Source: Lactobacillus sp.
GTDB lineage: Bacteria; Bacillota; Bacilli; Lactobacillales; Lactobacillaceae
Reading direction: 5' to 3'
NCBI GenBank assembly: GCA_022483245.1
Contig: JAKVNR010000001.1
Coordinates: 620,001 to 684,000 of the forward strand
Length of the DNA: 64,000 bases
Shown: positions 35,737-63,146 of the stretch, one piece after another
Layout: the number at the start of each line of letters is the position of its first letter
Numbering within the stretch: position 1 is the first letter of the stretch
The notes under the pieces: generated by a model
What the model was told of the DNA's origin: nothing
The model's input: the letters and a program-made list of their open reading frames with translations, nothing else
Databases searched by the model: none
Position numbers and translations under genes: made by a program

Positions 35737-35802
35737 ATTCAGTATATCATAAAGAATAAAATATAATCTATAAGTATGCTTTATAGTTTAAGGATATCAA
35801 AC

Positions 35803-35885
35803 AAAAGCACTACCTCTCGTACAGATAGTGCTTTTTGCGTTGTTTGATGCATAGACCTGATTCAATGCGTCGCATACTTAGTATA
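35803..35885 (-). ncRNA. S1: solo antitoxin unit without adjacent toxin ORF
   Basis: Terminator 35803-35836, DR and -10 (35880-35885); 35821-35937 is identical to 36243-36359. Confidence 0.7.
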
Positions 35886-35937
35886 TCATGAATTGGCTTT
35901 TAAACAATCAAATTAGAGGGGGATCTATTTTGATAAA
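35821..35937. repeat. 117-bp repeat copy 1 (second copy at 36243-36359)
   Basis: Letter-by-letter identical, constant 422-bp offset. Confidence 0.95.
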
Positions 35938-60347: not shown

Positions 60348-60450
60348 TTACTGTTTATAAAGTTCAAGGAAGTGTCCGATTCAGCTATCTTCTTTGATAT
60401 AATTAACGCTGGCAACTGACATACGCCTCCCTTGAAAGGAGGTGAATTTG

Positions 60451-60549
60451 ATGCATGATATTTTCGTATTCATCGTTGCTCCGCTTTTAGTCGGAATAAC
60501 TCTTAAGTTATTTGACTGGTGGCTCAGCAGTCACGGCAACGATAAGTAA
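60451..60549 (+). CDS. TA4: Fst-like type I toxin, MHDIFVFIVAPLLVGITLKLFDWWLSSHGNDK
   Basis: SD gaaaggaggtg, extended -10 TGATATAAT (60398-60403), terminator 60595-60628. Confidence 0.9.
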   Translation: MHDIFVFIVAPLLVGITLKLFDWWLSSHGNDK

Positions 60550-60591: not shown

Positions 60592-60668
60592 AATAAAAGC
60601 ACTATCTGCCCACTAGATAGTGCTTTTTGTGTTGTTTGATACAAATGATATTTTCATATCCGTTGCAC
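60592..60668 (-). ncRNA. TA4 antitoxin antisense RNA
   Basis: Minus -10 TATAAT (60673-60678); DR TTTGATACAAATGATATTTTCATATCCGTTGC matches toxin TTTGATGCATGATATTTTCGTATTCATCGTTGC. Confidence 0.75.
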
Positions 60669-60816
60669 CTTTATTATAGATGAACAAGCATAAAAAGCCA
60701 AATCTTAATTAAAACGCGCTACCACAATATAAAATAATAAGCCAATTAATGAGCCTGTTTTGATATAACTAACGCTGGCAGCTGACATAAGCCTCCCTTG
60801 AAAGGAGGTGAATTCA

Positions 60817-60918
60817 ATGTTCCAGGACTTTTTCAAGTTCGTCGCTGCCCCGATTATTGTCGGTATAGCACTTAAGCTATTTGACCGGTGGCACGAAAGT
60901 CATGGCAACGATATGTAG
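60817..60918 (+). CDS. TA5: Fst-like type I toxin, MFQDFFKFVAAPIIVGIALKLFDRWHESHGNDM
   Basis: SD gaaaggaggtg, -10 TGATATAAC (60764-60769), terminator 60966-60999. Confidence 0.87.
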   Translation: MFQDFFKFVAAPIIVGIALKLFDRWHESHGNDM

Positions 60919-60962
60919 CAGTTGCCTTCGGCTCGCACATTCATCAGTTGCGGTGAATGTAA

Positions 60963-61037
60963 AAGAAAAGCACTATCTCTGTAACAGATAGTGCTTTTTG
61001 CGTATTCAGTGCAGAAAATATTTTTAAATTCGTTGCA
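60963..61037 (-). ncRNA. TA5 antitoxin antisense RNA
   Basis: Minus extended -10 TGTTATACT (61043-61048); DR TATTCAGTGCAGAAAATATTTTTAAATTCGTTGC. Confidence 0.7.
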
Positions 61038-61241
61038 TGTTTAGTATAACAGGACAAACGAAAATAAACATAATTAAAATCTGAATTATAATGTTTTTGC
61101 ACTAAATTAAAATTCTCCCTATGTCGGTTGCAGACTAGCCTTATTTGAAATCGCGATGGTTAAAACCAGTTTGAGTGCATGTTGCTTGCTAGTAAGCCAG
61201 ATCCCATATATATTAAGCATATCTTGAAAGGAGAAGTTCCG

Positions 61242-61484
61242 ATGGTTAAAGTCAAAATCATAAAAATTGGTCATTCCAAAGTTCTTCCCGTTCCTAAAGC
61301 ATTCAAAACCATTAGCACTGAATATGAAGCCTTTTTAGGTAGAGATGGTGCGATTACTTTCTTGCCGGTGACTCTCAATCCCTTTGACAATAAAGACTCT
61401 ATTAAAAAATATGGCAAATTCAATGGCGATACTACTTGTTTCATCGACGTTGGGTTTACTGATAAAAAATATGAAGACCTATAA
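61242..61484 (+). CDS. PemI/MazE-like (AbrB-fold) antitoxin, apparently solitary
   Basis: MVKVKIIKIGHSKVLPVPKAFKTISTEYEAFLGRDGAITFLPVTLNPFDN; SD gaaaggag. Confidence 0.75.
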   Translation: MVKVKIIKIGHSKVLPVPKAFKTISTEYEAFLGRDGAITFLPVTLNPFDNKDSIKKYGKFNGDTTCFIDVGFTDKKYEDL

Positions 61485-61558
61485 TGAGAGAGCAAAATTT
61501 TAAAATTACAAGGAGACGGCCGATTCAGCCGCTTTCGACCCGTACCTTCGTCAGTTGA
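61484..61558 (+). pseudogene. Truncated PemK-like toxin remnant MREQNFKITRRRPIQPLSTRTFVS*
   Basis: TAATG overlap with the antitoxin stop as in pemIK operons; N-terminal MRE.../RRP elements only. Confidence 0.4.
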
Positions 61559-61569
61559 GACAAACGTAA

Positions 61570-61645
61570 AAGAAAAGCACTATCTGTAAGAGAGATAGTG
61601 CTTTTTGCGTGTCCAGTGCATAGGACATTTTCAAGTTCGTTGCAT
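61570..61645 (-). ncRNA. S6: solo Fst-type antitoxin unit
   Basis: Terminator 61573-61606; -10 TATACT (61650-61655); DR CCAGTGCATAGGACATTTTCAAGTTCGTTGC; no toxin ORF. Confidence 0.7.
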
Positions 61646-61778
61646 ACTCAGTATAACATGCCACACGAAAATAAGCATAGTTAAAATCTGAATGGGAAAT
61701 TTTTCCTCACCAACCAACAAAAATCCCCCTACATTCATATATGCAGTGGTGTTAAAATGAACTTGTCATTGTGAGGAA

Positions 61779-63146
61779 ATGGAAAGGAAGAATACAATGA
61801 AAAAAGCATCGGCCTTATTAGGCTCTTTGCTGTTCAGTGTTGGTTTGCTGGCAGTCAGCGGTCAAGCTGTTAAAGCGGACACCGTTCAACCTGCACAAAC
61901 AACTGCCACTGAACAAGTCCAAACTACCCAAACCACTGCTGAGCAAACTGCAACTGATCAAACTACTGACCAAGTTGCTACTAACGCTCCAGCAGTTAGT
62001 CAACAGTCAACGACGCAGATCAACTACGTTAAAGGCTACGGCGTTAACCTGTGGCAATTAAACGCTGATCAATCAGTTTCTTGGACTGGCCGCCGTTTAA
62101 CGACTGGCACCAAGTGGAAGACTTTTGGCTACACTGATTTGTCTAAGAGTCAGCAGCGTGTTTACAACTTGGGCGGGAACCAATGGATTTACGCTCAATA
62201 CTTAGTTGACGCTGGTACGAAGCAAAAAGTTGCTGGTTACCAAGCTGCTAGTTCACAGACTAAACCAAGTGGCCAAACGCCTGCGCAAACAACTGACATT
62301 ACCCCAGCTGCTAACGGCACGGTCGGAATTGTTGGCTACCGTCCAAGTTAGGGGACTGTTTTATACAGTTTAAACGGCAATACTGCCACCCCAACTGGCC
62401 GCTTCTTGAAGAACGGGACCGCTTGGAAGATCGTTGGTTCTAAGACCATCAACGGCACTACTTACTACAATTTAGGCGGCAACCAATGGGTTAACGCAGC
62501 TTACATTGTTACTGGTAATGCCAACGGTGCTTACCGCGTTTTAAAGAGCAACCCAAGTTCTCGTGAATACTACACTAGTCAATACAACCCAGTCTTTGCA
62601 CCTTGGGGCTGTGCTTCTTCTGCTTTGTCCATGCTGATGAAGTATGATGGCAACTGGAAGAACGTGCCGGGCAATTCTGAAAAAGCTAAGTTGACCTATA
62701 TGCAAAACCACCTGCCACGCAACAAGGCTAACGGTGGTCAAGACGGTGATCCTTACACTGGTAGAGGCTTCAGCCGCGTAATTCTGTCATACCGGTTAAC
62801 TCAATATGCCCACAGCTTAGGCGACGCAAAGATCGTTGATGTTTCTGGCGTATCTTTGAGCGGAATTATTGATTTGATCAAAGGCGGCAAGCCAGTTCTT
62901 TACTACGGCTGGTCATCATACCAAGCTGGCGGTGCTCGCAACCACTGTAAAGTAATCTTCGGCTACAACGCTCACAATAATACTTTCCTGGTTCACGATC
63001 CGTTGTACCAATACAAGTACTTCTACCGTGGTGGTGGCGGTATGCGTGAAGGCGTCCGCAACGGTTACGACTTAGGCCCAATCGCTTGGGTTTCAGCCCG
63101 CACCATTGCTCGTGAATACGCAGGCAACGCATTAACCATTCACTAA
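61779..63146 (+). pseudogene. Secreted SLAP-domain protein with C39-like peptidase domain, interrupted by in-frame TAG at 62349-62351
   Basis: Signal MKKASALLGSLLFSVGLLAVSGQAVKA; two SLAP-like segments; C39_2-like YNPVFAPWGCASSALSMLMKY...HCKVIFGYN...VHDP; both ORFs in the same frame. Confidence 0.82.

Follow-up and report, generated by a model that had tools for sequence, protein, structure and literature searches.

Which antisense RNA represses a type I toxin when the one encoded beside it fits it poorly and a detached copy fits it well? The question is raised by the TA5 locus of a Lactobacillus sp., located in a stretch of 64,000 nucleotides that we call the window (bases 620001-684000 of a 1.555-Mb single-contig genome; positions given below are window positions). 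Fst/par-type type I toxin-antitoxin units form a family scattered across this window, which holds six of the seven matches in the whole genome to the Fst toxin family PF13955, and two matches above threshold to the Rfam family RefB11 fall among its units. A two-way terminator, AAAAGCACTATCT-loop-AGATAGTGCTTTTT, closes each unit, the antisense gene entering it from the opposite side. We label the units by their toxins as TA1 (35516), TA2 (about 36078), TA3 (42330), TA4 (60451) and TA5 (60817), and solo antitoxin-like copies as S1 to S6, with terminators at about 35798, 38898, 41700, 42740, 42918 and 61566, respectively.

The units of the window are ordinary members of Fst/par (RNAI/RNAII; pAD1 par, par EF0409, Lpt of L. 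rhamnosus), with which they share a small hydrophobic peptide, a convergent antisense RNA, a two-way terminator, a direct repeat over the start codon and a 5' stem hiding the RBS. What differs is that S6 is toxin-less and that the best-matching antitoxin of TA5 lies about 0.7 kb off rather than being linked to it. At TA4, the antisense RNA gives a sub-threshold match to RefA9 (60596-60657, minus strand) opposite the RefB11 match, and these two Enterococcus sRNA families look like two halves of a single par locus.

TA5 and its linked antisense RNA

60451-60549, plus strand: TA4 toxin ORF, of the adjacent intact pair used for comparison
60762-60769, plus strand: TA5 toxin -10 region GATATAAC, hexamer TATAAC, in which the conserved last T has become C
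60817-60918, plus strand: TA5 toxin ORF, Fst-like, 33 aa (PF13955 E 2.6e-7, 30.8 bits, below the curated 36-bit cut-off)
60823-60841, plus strand: predicted target of S6 on the TA5 mRNA, +7 to +25 from the start codon
60961-61038, minus strand: TA5-linked (cis) antisense RNA, with pairing region 61004-61036, -10 hexamer TATACT at 61043-61048 and terminator 60966-60998

The TA5 ORF is intact and its PF13955 score is the best in the genome, while its RefB11 match (34 bits) is sub-threshold. The toxin -10 hexamer ends in T in 20 of the 21 promoters compared, the sole C being that of TA5. Loss of this last T is generally damaging in sigma-70 promoters, and the TA5 toxin promoter is probably weak. 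The peptide, for its part, has WH where most relatives have WL, and its C-terminal part is atypical. Since both promoter and peptide look weakened, a strong antitoxin may have become dispensable for TA5.

The linked antisense RNA has an intact promoter and a bidirectional terminator common to it and the convergent toxin gene, across which perfect complementarity is retained. Its direct repeat, which reads CAGAAAATATTTTTAAATTCG at 61012-61032, is another matter: whereas the other loci of the genome have a linked repeat that fits the toxin start region in the manner of Fst/par, that of TA5 does not (-20.1 kcal/mol), and we therefore file TA5 as a degenerate or split relative rather than a full member.

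S6 as a partner for the TA5 toxin

61242-61484, plus strand: solo MazE/PemI-like protein antitoxin gene adjoining S6 (NCBIfam NF047400 E 2.9e-6, below cut-off)
61566-61645 (approximate), minus strand: S6, solo Fst-type antisense RNA (RNAII-like, par/RNAII), boundaries estimated from sequence, with the start placed 5-7 nt past the -10
61573-61605, minus strand: S6 terminator hairpin, 13 bp, intact, loop GTAAGAG in the sense orientation
61611-61643, minus strand: S6 pairing region (direct repeat), core 61621-61639
61650-61655, minus strand: S6 -10 hexamer TATACT, extended, intact in sequence, within TGTTATACT

Promoter, repeat region and terminator of S6 stand in RNAII order, and the predicted fold leaves the 5' 18 nt of the RNA unpaired. 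Over its whole length (61526-61704) the unit shares 78% identity with the antitoxin half of TA5 (60919-61097), and the terminator loops of the two differ. A preliminary description of this DNA had noted that S6 possesses a terminator and an intact -10 hexamer but lacks a toxin, and this holds, no Fst toxin ORF having been found between the upstream MazE-like gene and S6. That gene likewise has no evident toxin gene beside it. S6 faces the MazE-like gene and could be taken for its ordinary antisense RNA, but all parts of S6 belong to the Fst repeat family and we reject this assignment.

The same description had claimed that S6 matches the TA5 toxin better than the antitoxin of TA5 itself does, in 17 of 19 positions. 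Indeed, TAGGACATTTTCAAGTTCG at 61621-61639 differs from TA5 toxin positions 60823-60841 at 2 of 19 bases, where about 0.02 such matches are expected by chance in the window, and the next-best matches to the S6 19-mer across the 1.555-Mb genome have three mismatches. Across a 22-nt core the TA5 toxin shares 20 bases with S6 and 15 with its own repeat, and across the full 33 nt 25 and 22 bases, respectively. The further claim, that the linked repeat is the more mismatched one, stands across the core but fails at two sites next to the start codon, which favour the linked copy.

The comparison of energies that the description had proposed favours S6 as well (-35.3 against -20.1 kcal/mol on the TA5 leader). 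The duplex of TA5 with S6 has 30 bp, including 13 GC pairs, and the predicted pairing, in which the 5' region of S6 covers the toxin leader and codons 3-9, runs as 5 bp, a mismatch and then the longest uninterrupted stretch of 13 bp; the duplex with the linked antitoxin has 29 bp, of which 8 are GC and 5 GU, with a longest run of 8. When the cost of opening the full-length RNAs is included, S6 comes to -10.2 and the linked RNA to +2.0. Cofolding of the full-length RNAs reverses the order (-27.9 for the linked pair, -14.0 for S6), because the linked RNA shares the TA5 terminator exactly.

We also modelled each toxin leader against each antisense 5' region and computed all duplex energies. Cognate pairs reach -34.4 (TA1), -35.1 (TA2), -37.3 (TA3), -34.2 (TA4) and -29.9 kcal/mol (a distant chromosomal locus), while non-linked pairs range from -4.5 to -25.5 kcal/mol, if one sets apart S1 with TA2, two units that have the same repeat. 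TA5 with its own antitoxin thus falls within the non-cognate range, and TA5 with S6 within the cognate one. In a scan of 22 Fst-like loci of the genus, the linked match lies between -28.5 and -40.5 in 21, compared with -21.5 for TA5, and the S6 position gives -37.5. In a stricter scan, from which the RBS stem was left out, none of 23 loci has a weaker match than TA5 (-17.9), and TA5 is the only one of the 23 that does not beat its mean local background, a few others exceeding theirs modestly. Of these 23 loci 22 belong to the genus, and the search pattern recovered only one of ten loci taken from other genera, so that the outlier status of TA5 applies almost wholly to loci of the genus.

Pattern searches of the same genome found no target for the S6 19-mer better than TA5, and none elsewhere for the TA5-linked repeat. 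The TA5 toxin and locus had no match in the plasmid collection, nor S6 in viral contigs; the TA5 toxin stretch had two 18-mer matches in viral contigs, in non-Fst contexts, which we take as chance. S6 being a better sequence partner for TA5 than the linked antitoxin is supported quantitatively.

Origin of S6 and decay of the linked repeat

61498-61529, plus strand: putative deletion scar, resembling the sequence ahead of the TA4 toxin promoter (60354-60385) and joined to the 3'UTR relic at CAGC
61526-61565, plus strand: remnant of the 3'UTR of a toxin mRNA, lying upstream of the S6 terminator, which agrees with the TA5 3'UTR at 27/40 positions and has its hairpin broken

The TA5-linked copy and S6 differ at eight sites of the 33-nt repeat. 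Five of these, all within the core, have the TA5 toxin base in S6, two have it in the linked copy, and at the eighth neither copy matches the toxin; in seven of the eight S6 has G or C where the linked copy has A or T. The simplest reading would be that the common ancestor fitted the TA5 toxin and that the linked copy lost the core. The asymmetry in losses (five in the linked repeat, two in S6) is small and not significant alone, and it does not suffice as proof that S6 is under selection.

Upstream of S6, the 3'UTR relic folds at -5.7 and lacks the stem that TA1 to TA5 possess (-9.6 to -13.2). The local alignment of the scar with the TA4 flank scores 17, compared with a maximum of 14 in 500 shuffles. 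As a TA4-like flank is fused here to a hairpin-less 3'UTR relic, S6 is best read as what remains of a complete toxin-antitoxin pair after its promoter and toxin were deleted, as the scar itself suggests.

A relative (genome G051, contig L015) has a MazE-like gene (2389-2180 of that contig) followed by a toxin-less antitoxin of the Fst repeat family, the two lying, as in the window, between an ATPase gene and a C39-like peptidase gene, and TA4 and TA5 are absent there. Its solo antitoxin has a repeat less like the TA5 toxin, a shortened terminator and a flank that groups with TA4; Fst units evidently recombine. A solo protein antitoxin and a solo Fst RNA antitoxin thus lie side by side in both genomes, and a scan of the genome contigs for the MazE-like protein gave no further match beyond this relative. 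The neighbouring SlpA-domain/C39-like peptidase gene (61797-63146) is broken in the window by an in-frame TAG at 62349-62351, where the L015 copy is open, which reflects either a pseudogene or a sequencing error.

Proposed action in trans and its alternatives

We propose, with about as much reason to accept as to doubt it, that S6 derives from a duplicated Fst/par type I module, of which the toxin was deleted and the antitoxin half remains, and that it would act in trans on TA5. The TA5-linked RNAII would have lost its fit to the toxin mainly through GC-to-AT transitions. The S6 RNA, if both genes are transcribed, would bind the TA5 mRNA at the start-codon region, through 13 contiguous bp, one mismatch and 5 more, and would there block ribosome loading, leaving the linked RNA to contribute only via the common terminator. 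Transcription of S6, binding to the TA5 mRNA and repression are steps that we infer, all three. The broader idea, that antitoxin duty for TA5 has moved from the linked RNA to one about 0.7 kb away, turning a cis pair into a trans pair, is more tentative.

Several precedents bear on this proposal. In the SprA2/SprA2AS pair of Staphylococcus aureus, it is the 5' half of the antitoxin, outside the overlap, that blocks ribosome loading and translation, whereas its overlapping 3' half does not inhibit translation, and SprA1AS, 75% similar to SprA2AS, does not cross-act (PMC6393315). Likewise, pAD1 RNAII gives no protection against the EF0409 toxin mRNA, which was blamed on repeat divergence (PMC7472228). 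If TA5 follows these examples, one would expect repression in trans by S6 and a poor effect of the linked antitoxin. In the unrelated zor/orz family, OrzO pairing over 17 nt with one mismatch is reported to be enough (PMC11264685), a length that the pairing of S6 with TA5 reaches. That the functional antitoxin for TA5 acts in trans from S6, as the preliminary description suggested, is thus plausible. Against it speak the cofolding energies, the unlike terminator loop of S6 and the probably weak TA5 toxin promoter, which possibly makes a strong antitoxin unneeded. Moreover, interaction at both ends is reportedly needed in pAD1, if one goes by the title of a study of that system, and this too counts against trans action.

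It may instead be that TA5 is decaying, having lost promoter strength and perhaps toxicity, so that its linked antitoxin drifts, S6 is a fossil and neither antitoxin matters now. We consider this possible but rather doubtful. The C in the TA5 -10 hexamer and the WH of the peptide do suggest that the module may be dying and S6 a relic, the sequence upstream of S6 has decayed, solo copies S2 to S5 are degenerate, and the five and two losses are compatible with drift of both copies. However, the TA5 ORF is intact, with the top PF13955 score in the genome, S6 retains its -10, its terminator stem and its 13-bp core, and a fossil would not be required to pair at a cognate level.

A linked antitoxin that still works, with S6 redundant, strikes us as unlikely. 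It would act via its complementary 3' overlap, by kissing of the terminators and RNase III cleavage of the TxpA/RatA type, and the more stable full-length cofold, the intact promoter and the two repeat positions adjoining the start codon all agree with this; but the overlapping 3' half of SprA2AS was inactive against translation (PMC6393315), and the strong 5' match kept by other loci of the genus suggests that this match is what selection acts on. Chance or mere paralogy, without functional meaning, is very improbable as the source of the likeness between S6 and TA5. Membership in one repeat family, with halves 78% identical, does lead one to expect some likeness, yet none of 1000 shuffles gave an energy as low as that of S6 with TA5, and other paralogous pairs reach -25.5 kcal/mol or weaker, so that family likeness does not yield pairing at a cognate level.

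The orz-only loci of Escherichia coli (orphan OrzP) are, like S6, type I antitoxin RNA genes without their toxin. They were presented in 2024 as the first report of solo type I antitoxins, they lie beside a full locus in some genomes, and their expression was shown by northern blot; the parts of that report consulted give no case of an orphan that fits a toxin better than the antitoxin of that toxin (PMC11264685). The zor/orz toxins are an unrelated family, and these loci serve here only as a functional precedent for S6. SprA1AS and SprA2AS, of the Fst superfamily, are 3'-overlapping antisense RNAs acting via a 5' domain at the RBS and start codon, as we propose for S6, but each acts specifically on the toxin to which it is linked, without cross-regulation. 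Solo type I antitoxins are already known, whereas a better-than-linked fit, of which we found no description in the searchable open-access literature, appears to be new.

The usual view of multi-copy type I modules is one of insulated cis pairs, and an orphan as the best-matching antitoxin would show how type I clusters rewire; solo antitoxins could persist because they stand in for the decayed antitoxin of a neighbour. Since the 5' repeat and the terminator pairing sites sit in different RNAs, TA5 and S6 also offer a natural test of which of them represses a toxin.

S2 to S5 (38898, 41700, 42740 and 42918) are terminator and antitoxin remnants that lack toxins and whose repeats are degenerate, in effect a graveyard of Fst units; at about 42041 there is also what is left of a toxin, lacking a promoter region of its own. 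A lone Fst-type terminator hairpin, with neither toxin nor repeat, stands between unrelated genes (G000:C1:1199550-1199588, L019) and may have been reused as an ordinary terminator. S1 (35798-35934) matches the TA2 antitoxin region in repeat, promoter and flank (98% over 125 nt, the pairing repeat being identical), differing from it in the terminator loop, and TA2 is thus predicted to have a trans-capable duplicate antitoxin as well.
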